This document shows, one piece after another, positions 18,916 to 27,855 of a DNA stretch of 30,678 nucleotides (positions are counted from its first letter, which is position 1; each line of letters starts with the position of its first letter). A program made the position numbers and the translations under genes. The DNA lies in the IMG/VR virus record IMGVR_UViG_3300030101_001822, positions 1 through 30,678 of that record. One strand, given 5' to 3'. The notes under the pieces are model-generated. The model was not told the DNA's origin and ran no database searches. It saw nothing but the letters and a program-made list of their open reading frames with translations. Origin of the DNA: a virus.

Positions 18916-19581
18916 TTAATGCGTTTTAAATATTATTTGTTGGTCTTTTTGATTCCAACATAAACCGCAAGTTCCACAATTAGCGGTTTTATTTTCTTGA
19001 ACTGGGCATAATATTGATACGCCTTTAACAGGTTTAACAACGTCGTATGAATTCGCACTAAATGAAGCGGTTAGATCATTAGAAAATCTAATATGACAAT
19101 TATCACTATCATTTAATTTAATTATCTCTTTTGCAATTGCTCTAGATAATGGAATAGATGATTTAATGTTATTTGCTGTATATCCATATAAAGCAATATT
19201 ATTGAAAGTGTTTAACATTTTACGCCAGAATTTTACATATTTGACGCTAAAAAAATCGCCTAATATATGCAATCGAATTAATAAAAGTTGATTAGAACTA
19301 TTTAATAAATCGTTATATATTCTTTGCTCTAACAGCTGTACATTTTTTGCACTTATTCGATGAGCAAAGGGCATATTATTGCCGTAACAATCTGACCAAT
19401 GCAAACAATCTTTTGGGCATGTCTCACGCTCTACAAGTGTTAAAGTTACAAATTTATAATCTTTGTATTTGCCTTTTAAAACTTTTTTTCCAAGCTTTTT
19501 ATTTGTACTGGGTTTTAATATTTTGAATTGATAATTTTCTAATTCAAAAATATTTTTTTTATATATCGTAGTTGTTAACAT
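18916..19581 (-). CDS. GP88-like Cys-rich protein
   Basis: A 221-residue protein. An N-terminal Cys group is TLTLVERETCPKDCLHWSDC (C55, C59, C65). A central RLHILGDFFSVKYVKFWRKM then ALYGYTAN matches the 'GDF..S..Y..FW......YT' pattern. A C-terminal CGTCGLCWN (C202, C205, C208) is followed by a final ...FKTH. This order matches the phage GP88 family as I remember it. The two Cys groups suggest a bound metal or iron-sulfur cluster; no reaction is known to me. It is a single-gene cassette with its own promoter, leader and terminator. Confidence 0.65.
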   Translation of the reverse strand: MLTTTIYKKNIFELENYQFKILKPSTNKKLGKKVLKGKYKDYKFVTLTLVERETCPKDCLHWSDCYGNNMPFAHRISAKNVQLLEQRIYNDLLNSSNQLLLIRLHILGDFFSVKYVKFWRKMLNTFNNIALYGYTANNIKSSIPLSRAIAKEIIKLNDSDNCHIRFSNDLTASFSANSYDVVKPVKGVSILCPVQENKTANCGTCGLCWNQKDQQIIFKTH

Positions 19582-19596
19582 AAATTTACCTTTTTA

Positions 19597-19605
19597 AATG
19601 TGTGA
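19597..19605 (-). promoter_or_regulatory. Shared early leader element (GP88-like gene)
   Basis: The minus strand reads TCACACATT, then TTAAAAAGG before the ATG at 19581. This element also precedes the first genes of six other cassettes. Confidence 0.55.
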
Positions 19606-19611
19606 AGCATT

Positions 19612-19640
19612 AATATAAAAAAAAACGCCAGCAGAGTCAA
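19612..19640 (-). promoter_or_regulatory. Promoter fused to a terminator (drives GP88-like gene)
   Basis: Minus-strand TTGACT (19635-19640), a 17-base spacer and TATATT (19612-19617). The -35 occupies positions 2-7 of the eight-base terminator loop, and the spacer is the descending stem arm plus its T-run. Confidence 0.7.
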
Positions 19641-19651
19641 TTGCTGGCGTT
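19624..19651 (-). terminator. Terminator after the 39-residue gene
   Basis: A ten-pair stem (AACGCCAGCA with TGCTGGCGTT), an eight-base loop, and nine T on the minus strand. The loop carries the -35 of the next promoter. Confidence 0.85.
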
Positions 19652-19675
19652 TTAATCTGTTAGGGCTGTTAATTT

Positions 19676-19795: not shown

Positions 19796-20111
19796 TTAAA
19801 ACTCCATATTGTTTAACTTTACTACTAAACCATTTTTTTATGCTGATCGTTCTAACATTAGTTTTTAAACCAATAAATTTTTTAATTAAATCTTGATCAG
19901 CTAATATTGATTTAGTTTCATTTTCAAAAGAATATATAAAAGGCGTACCATTAAACATTTCAGCTATTTTAATTCTATAAAAAATATCTTTAACATTTTT
20001 TTTGGTAAACTCTCCAACATCAATGACCATTGTAACATGAATCATTGTCTCTATAACATCGTTTGGAACATCTTTTAAATCGCATTCCGTGTAATCAAAA
20101 TGTAAGGCCAT
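19782..20111 (-). CDS. Early protein of unknown function (109 residues)
   Basis: It starts MALHFDYTECDLKDVPNDVI. I chose the ATG at 20111 because GGAG lies ten bases before it; the in-frame TTG at 20120 is adjacent to that site and so unlikely. The middle has TMVIDVGEFTKKNVKDIFYR and the end is Lys-rich (TISIKKWFSSKVKQYG). It has no membrane segment and no motif I know. It is the first gene of an early cassette with a fused terminator-promoter upstream. A small host-directed protein is a reasonable guess from position. Confidence 0.5.
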   Translation of the reverse strand: MALHFDYTECDLKDVPNDVIETMIHVTMVIDVGEFTKKNVKDIFYRIKIAEMFNGTPFIYSFENETKSILADQDLIKKFIGLKTNVRTISIKKWFSSKVKQYGVLNEKI

Positions 20112-20130
20112 ATCTAACAATCTCCTATAA

Positions 20131-20140
20131 AATATGTGAT
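20131..20140 (-). promoter_or_regulatory. Shared early leader element (109-residue gene)
   Basis: Minus-strand ATCACATATT followed by TTATAGGAG before the ATG at 20111. Confidence 0.55.
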
Positions 20141-20148
20141 ATTATGGG

Positions 20149-20177
20149 ATAATAAAAAAAAACGGCGTAAAAGTCAA
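20149..20177 (-). promoter_or_regulatory. Promoter fused to a terminator (drives the 109-residue gene)
   Basis: Minus-strand TTGACT (20172-20177), a 17-base spacer and TATTAT (20149-20154). The -35 is again at positions 2-7 of an eight-base terminator loop, the same geometry as at 19612-19640. Confidence 0.7.
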
Positions 20178-20189
20178 ATTACGCCGTTT
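20160..20189 (-). terminator. Terminator after the DUF932 gene
   Basis: An 11-pair stem (AAACGGCGTAA with TTACGCCGTTT), an eight-base loop and a nine-T run on the minus strand. It lies 25 bases beyond the DUF932 stop. Confidence 0.88.
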
Positions 20190-20213
20190 AAAGTAGGTTT
20201 TAAAGTTAAGTTA

Positions 20214-21374
20214 TTAGGAAGCTAAGGCGACTCTATTCCAATCATTAGATTTAAGGTTTAAAACTTTCCCTCCTAATTTTTGCCAAAAATCTACATTGTC
20301 AGCTTCAGCTGTATTTCCAACATTAGTGCAAGCATTAACTAAAGTTGCCTTAGATATTGGCTGTCCTTGTTCATAACCTCTTTGTCCTATAGTATTTAAT
20401 AAACCATCTAAAACACTAGAAGTTTCTTTTTTAGATAAAGACATAACCTTGCCTAAGTCCTCAACAGCTTCAGTATAATTTTTGCCAACAGCAATTTTAT
20501 CTTCTTTAGCTAATCTAATTTTCTCAACATTTTCATCAAATGTTTCTCTACTACCATAAGAGGAAATTATATCTCTTAATTGAAGCTTCAGGGCGTGGTT
20601 ATCGGCGTCCTTAGTTTCATCGGTTAAAATGTTATAATGGTCTCCAGTTCTAGCACTAGTAATATGTGCTTTCCTAGTTACATTTTCAGTTTGCATCCCA
20701 TTTGTACAAGCTAATGTCCAAGATATCCCAAAAACTGAAATACTACCAAAGCCTACTTCGCTGTTAGAAATACCAATCCCATGAGCCATAATATCATTAA
20801 CACCTGCATCAGCTGTTATAACTTCGCTTTTCAATCGAATGTAAAGCTTTTTATCGCTGTTGGCATAATTAACAATTTTCCATGAAGCACCAGACTCCCC
20901 AAGTGTAGGTAATGCAGATTCTAATAAATCAGAATTATCAAAAGTTTTAAATTTATCAGAAACAAATGCTCTAGCAATTCCAGTATGATGGTCATAATTA
21001 AATGGAGATAATGCATGAGGATTATCATAAGTTCTGATCATTCTCCTAACTGGATTTTTTTCAAATAAAGCATTAACAACGGCGTCCGTTTCCTCTGGAA
21101 CTTCATTTAATAAACGCCTAAATGTTGGGGCTTGGATTTCAATCTTATTTGCAATTTGATCTAAACATACTTGGTTTGCATTTAAGATTTGAGTTTTCTC
21201 TCCTCTATCAGCTTCCATAATAATCTGACTAATTTTAACGCCTTTGTCATTTTCTATGGTTTTAAACTGAAGTTGGTTTGTAGGTGCAATAAAGTCTTGT
21301 TTCATATCGTTATGACTTTTGATATCAATTAACAAACTCTCTAAAGTCCTACTATCGTTTTCTAAATGTCTCAT
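20214..21374 (-). CDS. DUF932 (phage/plasmid) family protein
   Basis: A 386-residue protein; start at the ATG at 21374, where AGGAG is six bases upstream, rather than the longer frame that begins in the terminator. Family signs are ARAFVSDKFKTFDNSDLLES, an NSEVGFGSISVFGIS segment and WTLACTNGMQ, all characteristic of DUF932 proteins in phages and plasmids (YfjQ-like). Length fits. Its biochemical function is not established to my knowledge. It is a single-gene early cassette, so it is probably made in quantity soon after infection. No membrane or catalytic motif is evident. Confidence 0.8.
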   Translation of the reverse strand: MRHLENDSRTLESLLIDIKSHNDMKQDFIAPTNQLQFKTIENDKGVKISQIIMEADRGEKTQILNANQVCLDQIANKIEIQAPTFRRLLNEVPEETDAVVNALFEKNPVRRMIRTYDNPHALSPFNYDHHTGIARAFVSDKFKTFDNSDLLESALPTLGESGASWKIVNYANSDKKLYIRLKSEVITADAGVNDIMAHGIGISNSEVGFGSISVFGISWTLACTNGMQTENVTRKAHITSARTGDHYNILTDETKDADNHALKLQLRDIISSYGSRETFDENVEKIRLAKEDKIAVGKNYTEAVEDLGKVMSLSKKETSSVLDGLLNTIGQRGYEQGQPISKATLVNACTNVGNTAEADNVDFWQKLGGKVLNLKSNDWNRVALAS

Positions 21375-21386
21375 ATTTTTCTCCTT

Positions 21387-21394
21387 TGTGTGAT
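21387..21394 (-). promoter_or_regulatory. Shared early leader element (DUF932 gene)
   Basis: Minus-strand ATCACACA followed directly by AAGGAG. A promoter is expected just upstream, but the TTGTTT in the terminator loop and a GTTTTA-type -10 are weak. Confidence 0.45.
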
Positions 21395-21410
21395 GGTTAA
21401 AACATAAAAA

Positions 21411-21696: not shown

Positions 21697-22055
21697 TATG
21701 CAAATCCCCATCTTTTTAAAACTTTAATATCATTTTCATCTACATTGTCTATTCGATCAATATAAACTTCAATCTCAGGGGAGTGCTGACAATCACCATC
21801 ATCGTCAATATATTCTCTAACCATAAAGAAATCATCATAGCCGTCTTTTTTAAAAACTTTAAAATTAGCATAAATTAATCTAAGTAAATCTATTTCTTTA
21901 ATTTGTTTACCGTCTTGATTTACTGCAACTTTCTCACTCCAAGTTCTGCCCTCAAAATCACGTTTGATTAACTTGCAATCTAAAAGATCAAAAAAATGTT
22001 TGTGGGAACGCTCATACGTCCCCTCATTTTCTACAGTTCTTATCATTACTGGCAT
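21696..22055 (-). CDS. Small early protein, unknown (119 residues)
   Basis: A polar alpha/beta protein starting MPVMIRTVENEGTYERSHKH, with VAVNQDGKQIKEIDLLRLIY in the middle and acidic DDDGDCQHSPEIEVYIDRID near the end. It has a strong ribosome site (GGAGG, seven bases before the ATG) and TAATG overlaps at both ends. No membrane part and no motif I can name. Likely a host-interaction or regulatory factor by context only. Confidence 0.5.
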   Translation of the reverse strand: MPVMIRTVENEGTYERSHKHFFDLLDCKLIKRDFEGRTWSEKVAVNQDGKQIKEIDLLRLIYANFKVFKKDGYDDFFMVREYIDDDGDCQHSPEIEVYIDRIDNVDENDIKVLKRWGFA

Positions 22056-22252
22056 TATTCATCCTCCTCATTTTCATCGTCATCTTCATCAGGTTCTCTA
22101 TAAAATAAAACGACATGTTCTATTTCACTATCATCGCCCTTTATCCAAGCAGTAATTTTTTTAAGATCCTGAGTGGTTGCATAAGACCAATTTGTATGGC
22201 CTTGCATTTCTTCACAAGCTTCGTCTAAAGCATCTGAATTATATCTCGACAT
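22055..22252 (-). CDS. Small acidic early protein (65 residues)
   Basis: MSRYNSDALDEACEEMQGHT, then DLKKITAWIKGDDSEIEHVV and a terminal run of Asp and Glu (EPDEDDDENEEDE). The strongly acidic tail resembles DNA-mimic or inhibitor-type phage proteins, though that is only a charge-based comparison. It is the first gene of its cassette, behind the shared leader and a promoter that overlaps a terminator. It overlaps the next gene as TAATG. Confidence 0.5.
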   Translation of the reverse strand: MSRYNSDALDEACEEMQGHTNWSYATTQDLKKITAWIKGDDSEIEHVVLFYREPDEDDDENEEDE

Positions 22253-22263
22253 AATTTTCTCCT

Positions 22264-22275
22264 ATAATATGTGAT
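22264..22275 (-). promoter_or_regulatory. Shared early leader element (65-residue gene)
   Basis: Minus-strand ATCACATATTAT followed by AGGAG before the ATG at 22252. Confidence 0.55.
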
Positions 22276-23677: not shown

Positions 23678-23894
23678 CAGAAGTCTCCTTTGATGGTTTA
23701 TGTTTAATCAAAAGAGAAACCTCTGTCTGTGTGTCATTTAATTCAACTTCACTTAACAAGTCTTCATCAGAGCAATTAGCTAATCTTTTAATAATTGCTT
23801 TTCTAATGTCATCAGCTGTTACTGATTTGTAAGGATCTTCTGTTATATGGTTTACGGTAAAACCAAGGAAACCTAAGCTATTATATTGTTTCAT
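23670..23894 (-). CDS. Small early protein, unknown (74 residues)
   Basis: MKQYNSLGFLGFTVNHITED, then SVTADDIRKAIIKRLANCSD and SEVELNDTQTEVSLLIKHKP. It resembles a small helix-containing domain that may bind a partner. ATGA overlap with the upstream gene and an eight-base overlap with the downstream one. No family recognised. Confidence 0.5.
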   Translation of the reverse strand: MKQYNSLGFLGFTVNHITEDPYKSVTADDIRKAIIKRLANCSDEDLLSEVELNDTQTEVSLLIKHKPSKETSDE

Positions 23895-24142
23895 TCTTCT
23901 TCCTCCTCAACATTAACAACATCGAAACGTAAATCTCCAAAAGTCCAGTCTGCCAAATAATTTGCCAACAACTCTAATGATTTACCTCCATCCCTACCAT
24001 TGTAAACATCTGGGGCGTCTTCCAGTAATTTTTTCGCTACAGCTTTAGCTTTTTCTTTAGCTTCTTCTAAAGAATTAGCTTCAATATCAAAATTTTGATC
24101 AAGCCAAATATTAGCATCTAACTTAAAATAGTAATTTTTCAT
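23891..24142 (-). CDS. Small early protein, unknown (83 residues)
   Basis: MKNYYFKLDANIWLDQNFDI, then EANSLEEAKEKAKAVAKKLL and an end rich in Glu (FDVVNVEEEEE). The beta strand, 'NSLEEAKEKAKA' helix and beta strands pattern is common in small phage proteins of the DpnD/PcfM or similar 'ASLEEA' type, with no known action here. It is the first gene of a cassette of seven or more genes and sits behind a TTGACA-type promoter and the shared leader. Confidence 0.5.
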   Translation of the reverse strand: MKNYYFKLDANIWLDQNFDIEANSLEEAKEKAKAVAKKLLEDAPDVYNGRDGGKSLELLANYLADWTFGDLRFDVVNVEEEEE

Positions 24143-24155
24143 ACAATCTCCTATA

Positions 24156-24165
24156 TAATGTGTAT
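24156..24165 (-). promoter_or_regulatory. Shared early leader element (83-residue gene)
   Basis: Minus-strand ATACACATTA followed by TATAGGAG before the ATG at 24142. Confidence 0.5.
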
Positions 24166-24169
24166 AAGA

Positions 24170-24198
24170 GTTATCGCATACAATTAATTTATTGTCAA
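24170..24198 (-). promoter_or_regulatory. Extended -10 promoter, TTGACA-N17-GATAAC
   Basis: Minus-strand TTGACA at 24193-24198, inside the last codons of the nuclease gene, a 17-base spacer ending in TGC, and GATAAC at 24170-24175. The TATGCGATAAC core is identical at 27084. Confidence 0.6.
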
Positions 24199-25354: not shown

Positions 25355-25672
25355 TTATTTAGCATAAATGTATTTATCTCTTAACTCTTCATATGTTATT
25401 CCCTCGTTTTTGTGAGGTACACATTTGCCTTCATATTTTTTGATAAATTTTTGAAGCTGCTTATGGTCTTTAGACCAATCTTTATAAGCTTCATCTTGTT
25501 TATCTAAGTCACTTAACATCTCTTCGACAATATACAATCGATACTTTGCTTCTGATAAAATATAACTATCAGGTAAAAGATCTTCAACCTGATCCCAAGT
25601 CATATCGTCAGATGAAATAAAGATATAATATAACTCATCGACTTTTTTTGCGTCTTTAACTATTTGTCTCAT
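25355..25672 (-). CDS. Early protein of unknown function (105 residues)
   Basis: A charged helical protein: MRQIVKDAKKVDELYYIFIS, then DDMTWDQVEDLLPDSYILSE and a Lys-rich helix (KDHKQLQKFIKKYEGKC). It has no membrane part and no motif I know. It forms a single-gene cassette with an extended -10 promoter, shared leader (ATCACACATTAAGGAG) and terminator, so it is probably expressed strongly and early. Function unassigned. Confidence 0.5.
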   Translation of the reverse strand: MRQIVKDAKKVDELYYIFISSDDMTWDQVEDLLPDSYILSEAKYRLYIVEEMLSDLDKQDEAYKDWSKDHKQLQKFIKKYEGKCVPHKNEGITYEELRDKYIYAK

Positions 25673-25684
25673 AATCTACTCCTT

Positions 25685-25694
25685 AATGTGTGAT
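25685..25694 (-). promoter_or_regulatory. Shared early leader element (105-residue gene)
   Basis: Minus-strand ATCACACATT followed by AAGGAG before the ATG at 25672. Confidence 0.6.
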
Positions 25695-25877: not shown

Positions 25878-26600
25878 TTAATTTTTTGGAAATAAGTCTC
25901 TTTGCGAGGCGTGACTTGTGGACTTAGAATATGATGCTCCCAAACTCTCTTCGTAGTCCCCTTCCTTTTCAAGCTGACTTCTACATGGTGGTATCCAAAC
26001 CAAATCTGTTCCAAACGACCTTTCATCTTCTTCAAAGCCTTTCCAAACAAACCAAGCATAGCTCGTAGCTGTGGACGCCGTTGCCGATAGCTTTCCTTTA
26101 AGGATTGGTACTCGCTCTGTAAACTGAGCCACAAAATCAGGATGTGTTTCTTTAAATAATCTTTCATATCTTCCTACACTTTCTAAAAACTGTGTTCTTG
26201 CAAAGATAGCAACACAGTATCTTGCTTGTTTTAATGCTTTTAATACAAATTCTTCAGCCAGGTTAAATGGTGGATTGGTTACAATATAATGATACTTCTG
26301 CTTTTCGTCTGTTTTGAGAAAATCTGCAATTCGGTCTTGTCCATAATCATCTATGTCAGCTGAAACAACTGTATCAAAATACTCTTTTAATACTTTTGTC
26401 ATGTGACCAGCTCCGCAAGCTGGTTCCAAACAATTGATATGTCCATATCGGCCAGTAAACTTATCAGGTATACGCCAATATTTTTTTAAAACTTTTTCAA
26501 ACAACGCTCTCGTTGCCCAAGGCGGAGTAGGAAAGTAGTCTTTACTATCCTTATCTTCGTGCCTTTGGCTCATAACAGCGTGTGTTTTATTTTGTCCCAT
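25878..26600 (-). CDS. DNA methyltransferase (adenine-type), orphan
   Basis: A 240-residue SAM-dependent methyltransferase. It has YFPTPPWATRALFEKVL near the start, motif I LEPACGAGHMTKVL (58-71), an acidic motif II VVSADIDDYG (78-87) and motif IV IVTNPPFNLAEEF (106-118). NPPF is the catalytic motif of N6-adenine or N4-cytosine enzymes. No restriction enzyme is nearby, so it likely protects phage DNA or regulates it. It overlaps the preceding Cys-rich gene by 14 bases. Start alternatives: an ATG nine codons in (26573) is also possible, as neither has a good ribosome site. Confidence 0.82.
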   Translation of the reverse strand: MGQNKTHAVMSQRHEDKDSKDYFPTPPWATRALFEKVLKKYWRIPDKFTGRYGHINCLEPACGAGHMTKVLKEYFDTVVSADIDDYGQDRIADFLKTDEKQKYHYIVTNPPFNLAEEFVLKALKQARYCVAIFARTQFLESVGRYERLFKETHPDFVAQFTERVPILKGKLSATASTATSYAWFVWKGFEEDERSFGTDLVWIPPCRSQLEKEGDYEESLGASYSKSTSHASQRDLFPKN

Positions 26601-26889
26601 CAGGAACTATCCATTCTAAGTGATCCGTGTACCGTGCTTCAGGATACCTTTCTCTGATTTGTTCTGCTTCACAATCCCAACAAGTGTATTCAACATCACA
26701 GCTGGTACATTCTTTATTAGGCTCATAGTCATCATTTTCGATAAGCTTATAATTGTAAATACGTTTATCATCTATATAATAAATTTCACACTCTTCACAA
26801 ACTTCAGGCACTTCATCATCCCCAAGCATAGAGCTGTAGGTAAAATTACAATTAGTGCAAACAAATTTACCTTGTTGTTCTCTAATCAT
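26587..26889 (-). CDS. Cys-rich zinc-binding protein (100 residues)
   Basis: MIREQQGKFVCTNCNFTYSS, then VPEVCEECEIYYIDDKRIYN and ECTSCDVEYTCWDCEAEQIR. Four CxxC pairs (CTNC, CEEC, CTSC, CWDC) form two zinc ribbon-like sites in an acidic protein. It is transcribed just before the methyltransferase and overlaps it, so the two are a cassette with the shared leader. A zinc-dependent protein or nucleic-acid interaction is likely, but the target is not known. Confidence 0.6.
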   Translation of the reverse strand: MIREQQGKFVCTNCNFTYSSMLGDDEVPEVCEECEIYYIDDKRIYNYKLIENDDYEPNKECTSCDVEYTCWDCEAEQIRERYPEARYTDHLEWIVPDGTK

Positions 26890-26899
26890 TTCATCTCCT

Positions 26900-26906
26900 A
26901 TAATGT
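26900..26906 (-). promoter_or_regulatory. Shared early leader element (methyltransferase cassette)
   Basis: Minus-strand ACACATTA followed by TAGGAG before the ATG at 26889. Confidence 0.5.
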
Positions 26907-26918
26907 GTTATGCGATAT

Positions 26919-26946
26919 ATCTTATACATATAATTTGGTATGTCAA
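26919..26946 (-). promoter_or_regulatory. Promoter of the methyltransferase cassette
   Basis: Minus-strand TTGACA (26941-26946) directly after a terminator T-run, a 16-base spacer and TAAGAT (26919-26924). A TATAAT on the plus strand (26929-26934) lies in the same spacer. Confidence 0.55.
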
Positions 26947-26952
26947 ATAAAA

Positions 26953-26987
26953 AAGCTGCATAAAACGAAGGAGGTTCTATGCAGCTT
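26953..26987 (-). terminator. Terminator with a CCTCCTT loop
   Basis: A ten-pair stem (AAGCTGCATA with TATGCAGCTT) closes a 15-base loop. On the minus strand a T-run follows. Read leftward, the loop shows CCUCCUU, complementary to Shine-Dalgarno sites. Read rightward, the loop shows AAGGAGG four bases before an ATG. Confidence 0.8.
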
Positions 26988-27023
26988 CTTTTCATCACAC
27001 ATTATATAGTTCTTTATTTTTAA
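26979..27023 (+). CDS. Possible 14-residue hydrophobic peptide, opposite strand
   Basis: On the plus strand AAGGAGG lies four bases before an ATG, and the frame reads MQLLFITHYIVLYF and TAA. The start sits in the descending arm of the hairpin, so it would be masked when the stem forms. A TATAAT at 26929 is the only promoter hint. It resembles the layout of a type I toxin gene facing an antisense RNA, but may be chance. Confidence 0.25.
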   Translation: MQLLFITHYIVLYF

Positions 27024-27083
27024 TTAAAGTCATAAAATAAAGAATCTTGAAAAAGGTAGTTTTATGTTTCTTTTTCAACACCA

Positions 27084-27112
27084 GTTATCGCATATGATCA
27101 CATATGTGTCAA
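27084..27112 (-). promoter_or_regulatory. Extended -10 promoter, TTGACA-N17-GATAAC
   Basis: Minus-strand TTGACA (27107-27112) overlapping the stop of the membrane-protein gene, a 17-base spacer ending in TGC, and GATAAC (27084-27089). Same core as at 24170. No gene starts within about 190 bases downstream other than through a terminator. Confidence 0.6.
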
Positions 27113-27588
27113 TTTTTATTTACATAAAGATAACCTAGAAGCGTAATAAATCCGATAAGCGTGGCACACAATATAACAATACCGATCCATTCCCATATTT
27201 TTCTAATCAGTTCTTGGCGTTCATAAATATCTTGTTGACGTTTCTTCCTAATCTCCCCTTCCATTTTAAGGATCTCATTCCATGAATTGCTTCCATAGTG
27301 AAAATTAATAAAAGTTTTCAGCTCTTGTCTTTGCTGTTCCAGTTTCTTTTTAGCTGTAAAAGCTTCGATGGCCGAGGCTTCTATTTCTTTGCCCTTGAAT
27401 AATTTCTGTAGAGCTGACGCGTTTTTCGTGGTCTTCTCGGCATTATCCACATCACTTAGGGCTCCCATCCAGCGTGACAGGTCTTTTCCCATAGACTCTA
27501 TGTCCTTGCCGACTGCAAATCCATTTTTAATTGCGGTAAAAGCCGATTTAGCAACACTCAATGCCGCGGTAATCGTTACAGGGTCCAT
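27109..27588 (-). CDS. Helical protein with C-terminal membrane anchor (holin-like or virion-like)
   Basis: A 159-residue protein starting MDPVTITAALSVAKSAFTAI. I prefer the ATG at 27588; the 46 residues before it look unlike a protein start and overlap the divergent promoter region. It contains GKDIESMGKDLSRWMGALSD, a Lys/Glu coiled coil to about residue 125, and one membrane span near the end (IGIVILCATLIGFITLLGYL). I recall this type of protein from uncultured marine phages without a tested function. Its single C-terminal anchor suits a holin-like or structural role. Confidence 0.55.
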   Translation of the reverse strand: MDPVTITAALSVAKSAFTAIKNGFAVGKDIESMGKDLSRWMGALSDVDNAEKTTKNASALQKLFKGKEIEASAIEAFTAKKKLEQQRQELKTFINFHYGSNSWNEILKMEGEIRKKRQQDIYERQELIRKIWEWIGIVILCATLIGFITLLGYLYVNKN

Positions 27589-27681
27589 TTGTAAACTTTC
27601 TGCGGTTGTTATGATTCGATTATAACTTTTTTTAATGTCAAGTCTATTAATTTGTAAAAAGTTATTTATAGTTAAAGGTTT

Positions 27682-27855
27682 ATGAATCAAGTTTTTAGAG
27701 GAGAGCCGTGTGTCATTTGCCACCATTGTGGTCGAAAGAAGTATTCAAGCGGTTGTACCTGTCACAAAATACAAAGGAAAATAGCTCATGTCACGAGAAG
27801 AAAAGAAAGAGGAAAAAATGAACATACCGAATCACACAAAATTACCAAACCGTAG
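27682..27855 (+). CDS. 57-residue Cys/His-rich basic protein
   Basis: The plus-strand frame reads MNQVFRGEPCVICHHCGRKK, then YSSGCTCHKIQRKIAHVTRR and a basic end. C10, C13, C16 with C25 and C27, plus His, form a plausible small zinc site. A weak AAAGG precedes the ATG. It overlaps the next plus-strand gene by 38 bases or more, in another frame. The Cys spacing argues against chance, but the ribosome site is poor. Confidence 0.45.
   Translation: MNQVFRGEPCVICHHCGRKKYSSGCTCHKIQRKIAHVTRRKERGKNEHTESHKITKP

Follow-up and report, generated by a model that had tools for sequence, protein, structure and literature searches.

What a phage encodes in the gap between two of its genes, ORF A (27109-27726) and ORF B (26587-26889), when that gap holds signals for transcription and no obvious gene, is the question raised by this locus. 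The window, meaning the whole stretch of DNA that was analysed (30,678 nt), forms part of a 49.9-kb record of an uncultured marine phage whose closest cultured phages by terminase are the Pelagibacter phages HTVC027P, HTVC023P, and two more (54-63% protein identity); a run of N at 30679-30688 of the record, just past the window end, marks an assembly gap. An earlier note on this DNA had described a promoter pointing into a gene-free stretch that ends at a hairpin terminator, and had proposed either a small RNA that targets translation or an antisense/toxin-like pair. The minus strand from 27079 to 26945, within this gap, is likely to be the gene of a trans-acting antisense small RNA predicted to repress translation across a regulon made up of the phage's own mRNAs. 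Its features are as follows:

27084-27112, minus strand: sigma-70-like promoter, TTGACA-17-GATAAC, recognized by sequence, with its layout kept in relatives and sister clades
26945-27079, minus strand: predicted small RNA gene of about 134 nt, from a transcription start near 27078 to the terminator U-run, based on fold and alignment
27047-27078, minus strand: hairpin 1, UUGAAAAAG...CUUUUUCAA, invariant in clade A
27010-27044, minus strand: hairpin 2, the most variable part, whose pairs survive double changes in L024 and L025
26994-27011, minus strand: unpaired linker AACUAUAUAAUGUGUGAU, the predicted anti-leader (target-pairing) segment, invariant in 13 sequences
26949-26991, minus strand: intrinsic terminator hairpin and U-run, based on folding
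26970-26974, minus strand: CCUCC, an anti-SD-like motif in or beside the terminator loop, kept as CCUCC or CUC(C) in relatives and in clades B and C

The promoter begins right after the stop of the 27109-27726 gene, with its -35 box TTGACA at 27112-27107, a 17-nt spacer, and its -10 box GATAAC at 27089-27084. The earlier note's promoter is borne out by a -35/-10 layout that is kept in relatives, though GATAAC is a weak -10, which is why a simple promoter scanner did not list it. No convincing gene is present in 27108-26890, and the stretch does end at a terminator hairpin, with arms at 26974-26991 and 26949-26966 (17-18 bp) and a predicted fold of -21 kcal/mol (z -7.5). The 7-nt loop of this hairpin reads CUCCUUC on the minus strand and is preceded by a C, so that the CCUCC reported earlier is present; it is the sole long terminator-like hairpin with such a loop in the 49.9-kb record. 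The 136-nt RNA (27077-26942) is predicted to fold into three hairpins at -35.3 kcal/mol (z -7.3), a value equalled by none of 200 shuffles, leaving the linker unpaired after hairpin 2 and before the terminator. As read from the sequence, the locus has the parts of a stand-alone transcription unit, namely a promoter, no conserved ORF, and a terminator with a U-run. No family in Rfam 15 matched the small RNA at or above its gathering threshold.

The element was found in about 15 IMG/VR contigs, and a linker-pattern search gave candidate matches in L235 and L236. It was found in no cultured phage, and no equivalent RNA was found in the stretches searched of the nearest ones, HTVC027P, HTVC023P, 023Pt_psg01, and DSL-LC04. 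In an alignment of 13 sequences the linker does not change, while hairpin 2 and the terminator vary by compensatory or G-U changes. Across 37 base pairs, 98.9% of cells are paired and four pairs are double-changed, compared with a mean of 1.1 in shuffles, of which 1 in 500 scored as high; the secondary structure is thus conserved with compensatory change. Terminator loops of different lengths occur (CUCCUUC, UCCUCC, ACCUCC, and UCCUC), all of which keep UCC. Gene content switches abruptly after the small RNA terminator among close relatives (26953-26890 and the corresponding positions in relatives), and each newly placed gene retains a similar promoter and leader, as at a modular insertion point. 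Since the gene content 3' of the terminator varies in this way, the small RNA unit ends cleanly there.

This pattern of conservation bears on the second of the two original proposals, a type I toxin-antitoxin-like pair in which a 14-residue hydrophobic peptide on the plus strand would be controlled by the minus-strand RNA as its antisense regulator. The mini-ORF MQLLFITHYIVLYF (26979-27023, plus strand) is literally there with GGAGG before it, and it persists in part of clade A. Against such a pair, its start codon is gone in L028, no hydrophobic counterpart occurs in clades B and C, a consensus scan yielded no plus-strand promoter reading into it, and conservation tracks the RNA structure instead. 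The conserved hydrophobic ORF expected on the opposite strand of a type I system is thus not found, and the toxin reading, rejected because the mini-ORF is not conserved, is extremely improbable. The earlier interpretation consequently survives in part: the translation-targeting small RNA is well supported by compensatory structure, linker-leader matches, and a CCUCC loop carried on differing stems, whereas the antisense/toxin-like pair falls away.

The main feature of the locus, absent from the earlier note, is the complementarity of the linker (26994-27011) to the leaders of several phage genes. A repeat search found 26993-27006 to be complementary to 26899-26912, which is the leader of ORF B, and AACUAUAUAAUGUGUGAU is complementary to the leaders just before the SD of about seven genes in the same phage. 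The leader motif, AUCACA(C)AUUAUAUA-GGAG, lies directly 5' of the SD and often runs into it; copies occur as ACACATTATATAGGAG at 24163 and ATCACACATTAAGGAG at 25694, and more variable ones precede the genes at 22252, 21374, 20111, and 19581. The predicted target leaders are:

26895-26908, minus strand: ACACAUUAUAGGAG, leader of the gene at 26587-26889
25679-25694, minus strand: AUCACACAUUAAGGAG, leader of the gene at 25355-25672, with 11 contiguous pairs and a likely promoter about 70 nt further upstream
24148-24163, minus strand: ACACAUUAUAUAGGAG, leader of the gene at 23891-24142, with 13 contiguous pairs
22259-22275, minus strand: AUCACAUAUUAUAGGAG, leader of the gene at 22055-22252
21381-21395, minus strand: CAUCACACAAAGGAG, leader of the DUF932-like gene, which starts at 21374
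20122-20140, minus strand: AUCACAUAUUUUAUAGGAG, leader of a gene starting at 20111 or 20120
19589-19605, minus strand: UCACACAUUUAAAAAGG, leader of the GP88-like gene, which starts at 19581

These genes encode mostly small unknown proteins, in addition to the DUF932-like and GP88-like ones, and all lie between the DNA polymerase and the terminase.

Other control signals are present in the same region. The terminator hairpins at 19620-19660 and 20160-20200 (minus strand) carry TTGACT in the loop, 17 nt before TATATT/TATTAT, so that each appears as a terminator fused with the next promoter and holding its -35 box in the loop. The DUF932-like gene has an apparent promoter, TTTACA-TATATT, upstream of a leader hairpin with a long T-run (21475-21381, minus strand), an attenuator-like layout that is also seen in sister clades. 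An operator-like motif, TATRMGA-N-TCKYATA, is common to several promoters (26905-26946, 24163-24198, and 27084-27112, minus strand), with the spacer of the small RNA promoter containing a TATGYGAT direct repeat in its place, and suggests a common regulator for several phage promoters.

The pairing between linker and leaders exceeds what chance would give. At a cutoff of -13 kcal/mol, 14 initiation regions in four clade A records pair with the linker, compared with none in six related records that lack the element; dinucleotide-shuffled versions of the linker, 300 in all, average 1.7 with a maximum of 10. When the cutoff is relaxed to -11 kcal/mol, 23 are observed against a shuffle mean of 7.2 and maximum of 26, so that some shuffles reach the observed count. 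The clade A duplexes are AU-rich and modest, at -13 to -18 kcal/mol. Contiguous linker matches of at least 9 nt are concentrated 19-27 nt ahead of start codons. In records that carry the element, TCACACA and ACACATT occur upstream of starts 17 and 18 times, respectively (about one expected for each), and neither ranks with the most enriched words in records that lack it. The motif followed by GGAG is found in all eight records with the RNA and in two of ten without, while a scan of viral contigs by leader alone returned mostly background. The linker is thus complementary, above chance, to mRNAs encoded elsewhere. Matches upstream of terminators in L191, L243, L285, and L294 were set aside because they resemble the reverse complement of the gene's own leader.

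These counts also weigh on the simplest account of the locus, an ordinary intergenic terminator amid chance or neutral sequence, whose loop and linker would have no regulatory role. A terminator here does separate two transcription units, and relatives diverge in gene content immediately downstream of it. Such an account is very unlikely, given that a 134-nt promoter-to-terminator unit is conserved along with its structure, that the linker-leader matches exceed those of shuffles, and that a syntenic RNA persists in other clades with matched changes, as described below.

The main rival to an RNA-level role is that the leader motif acts as a DNA element, either a transcription-factor operator or a phage promoter where transcription units begin, with the linker as another copy in inverted orientation. 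Its standing stems from the overlap of some leader motifs with the operator-like promoter motif: several target promoters share that motif (TATAAGA-TATATCGCATA and similar) adjoining the leader, which also bears a superficial likeness to a T7-type promoter (CACTATAGGGAGA). The leader motif, however, keeps its place relative to the SD and start codon (19-27 nt) rather than to the promoter, which for the gene at 25672 probably lies about 70 nt upstream; the spacing from CACA to GGAG within the motif varies from 3 to 16 nt; and the inverted copy, which differs along with the leaders between clades, falls within an unpaired stretch of a structured RNA. A DNA element is for these reasons unlikely, and its T7-type promoter version is disfavoured by the variable internal spacing and the SD anchoring. 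A search for the single-subunit RNA polymerase family gave no match, with the control failing likewise.

The joint divergence of RNA and leader was followed in sister clades that were reached through the DUF932-like target gene. Clade B (G018/L274 and others; about 71% protein identity) has a syntenic RNA of different sequence, with a promoter ending in GATAAC, one hairpin, the linker CCUAUAUAAAAUGUGAUA, and a terminator stem, AAAGCUCCGAG, that is unrelated to the window's and again carries CCUCC in its loop. Clade C (L315) has the linker GUAUAAAAUGUGUGAUG and the loop CACAAUCCUCCGUA. Members of clade E (L305, L308, G021, L296, and L300) carry UACUCCUAUU exposed on a small hairpin, with GUUAAAUUGCAAAAC coming after it in most of them, and clade F (L010 and L013) has the exposed segment GACUCCUUUCGG. 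The leader of the DUF932-like gene is AACCAUCACACAAAGGAG in clade A, UUGCAUUUUAUAUAGGAG in clade B, AACACACAUUUUAUAGGAG in clade C, and UUUUGCAUUUUAACAAAUAGGAG in clade E, and between these four clades the anti-leader and this leader differ together.

A further set of DUF932-bearing phages, more distant and termed lineage D (L332, L334, L322, L327, L337, L343, and others), has an RNA in which a stem, GGGUUC/GAACCC or GGAUUC/GAAUCC, is capped by a loop carrying UUUUCUCCCAAAGUGA or a UCCCAAAGUG variant. Across 11 lineage D sequences the core UCCCAAAGUG does not change, while three of the six stem pairs are double-changed and 100% of cells pair. Genes of this lineage share leaders with CUUUGGGAG, and the loop UCCCAAAGUG faces shared CUUUGGGA leaders. 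Of the nine CTTTGGGA copies in L332 (0.6 expected by chance), eight have an ATG or GTG no more than 14 nt away, though some shorter lineage D contigs hold one such copy or none. At the level of sequence, lineage D shows the same logic as clades A-C, with an invariant loop, a covarying stem, and shared leaders. Separately, a copy of the anti-leader core, CTTCCCAAAGTG, lies directly after the DUF932-like gene and just before its terminator in this lineage (L320 4530, L321 2407, L322 9049, L337 7742, and L341 4549, plus strand), and is possibly a second, 3'-UTR-derived antisense element or sponge.

When five RNAs were assigned to five leaders (A, B, C, D, and E), pairing each RNA with its own leader was the best of the 120 assignments, both with and without the SD. 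A matrix of raw energies for all anti-leaders against all genomes was too noisy, because CUCC pairs with any SD, and an SD-free comparison and a contiguous-match test were used in its place. With the SD included, the clade A leader is matched slightly better by the clade C RNA than by its own (-17.3 versus -15.6), and with the SD removed its own RNA is marginally the best (-15.6 versus -15.5). The anti-leaders of clades A, B, and C resemble one another and match each other's targets, so that most of the discrimination comes from B, D, and E; correspondingly, the contiguous-match test separates D well and A, B, and C poorly, and by its strict 8-nt form the SD-free part of the clade E anti-leader has no target. 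The anti-leaders are more unpaired than the average of the RNAs that contain them.

The loop itself is open to a different reading, in which CCUCC would serve mainly as a general 16S anti-SD mimic that blocks host or phage SDs or binds S1/30S, with the linker secondary. In clades A, B, and C, loops with CCUCC or CUC(C) are retained on stems that are unrelated to one another, and folding predicts almost no pairing within these loops. It had been suggested that conservation of the stem without the loop would count against a functional loop; the opposite was found, as the loop is retained in sister clades while the stem is entirely replaced. The linker is nevertheless the invariant, phage-specific element, the leaders occur specifically in phages that carry the element, and in lineage D the anti-SD belongs to a longer, specific anti-leader, all of which makes a general mimic quite unlikely. 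The contact between loop and SD emphasized in the earlier note therefore gives only part of the picture, and it is the linker and leader that make the specific contact.

The proposed mechanism for the antisense small RNA begins with transcription from its own sigma-70-type promoter, which we infer would stop at the intrinsic terminator. The unpaired linker AACUAUAUAAUGUGUGAU would then pair in the cell with the leader motif before and partly in the SD, and the resulting duplex would keep the 30S subunit off about seven phage messages. Because this duplex would cover the sequence bound by 30S, the natural interpretation is that translation initiation is repressed, an effect established for antisense RNAs at ribosome-binding sites such as c4 of P1/P7 (PMC12197685), and the gene set between the DNA polymerase and the terminase may be tuned or shut off at some stage of infection. 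The CCUCC of the terminator loop would probably provide a second contact to the SD. In D and E the anti-SD CUCC lies within the anti-leader or in line with it, whereas in clades A-C the terminator loop carries it, not collinear with the linker. With the segments of clade A in the wrong order, the linker-leader duplex cannot run on in line into the loop; a second SD contact in clades A-C would require the terminator hairpin to lie alongside the duplex, which is plausible in length. The small RNA is probably a built-in dimmer of the phage's own protein production, since its exposed segments match about seven of the phage's own start signals and the versions in relatives are retuned to theirs.

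CU-rich anti-SD loops of the CCUCC type, which can pair with the SD, are a feature of the CcsR/"cuckoo" and alpha-r type RNAs of alphaproteobacteria. The small RNA described here presents a similar motif, but those RNAs are host-encoded, whereas here a separate, phage-specific linker would give specificity, and no Rfam match links them. Phage-encoded antisense RNAs are, to our knowledge, known singly and mostly from E. coli phages. The c4 RNA of P1/P7 is a phage small RNA whose exposed segments are the complement of a phage mRNA's ribosome-binding region and block its translation (PMC12197685). The small RNA shares this complementarity, a likeness that does not by itself make it a c4-type RNA, and differs in facing about seven separate leaders rather than one gene region, ant, involved in temperate-phage immunity, and in having its own promoter and terminator; no c4-type Rfam match was found at gathering scores, a result that counts only if the library includes a c4 model. 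PreS of lambda and VpdS are likewise phage-encoded and thought to act in trans by base-pairing, as is predicted here; according to a review, VpdS is a competitor for host Hfq that disturbs the action of host-encoded sRNAs (PMC12197685). The predicted targets of the present RNA are instead the phage's own messages, reached through a shared leader. No description of this RNA was found in the open literature, and a shared-leader regulon with lineage-matched anti-leaders goes beyond a plain new member of the known phage antisense RNAs.

As a tentative and rather doubtful extension, the leader and anti-leader may form a lineage-specific code, by which the syntenic RNA would time the phage's own expression and silence sibling phages with the same leader in co-infection. 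If so, phages with unrelated leaders would escape silencing in co-infected cells, and the RNA would be a superinfection or timing switch across a group of uncultured marine phages, reached at least twice with unrelated RNA sequences. The linker-leader pairing is a prediction that is directly testable in a laboratory reporter strain, and the arrangement would provide a computational handle for uncultured phages, in which a shared leader can be found and its reverse complement then sought before a terminator. If true, the control of a set of phage messages by one RNA through a common leader, with RNA and leader differing together from one phage lineage to another, would amount to a new level of gene regulation in marine phages.
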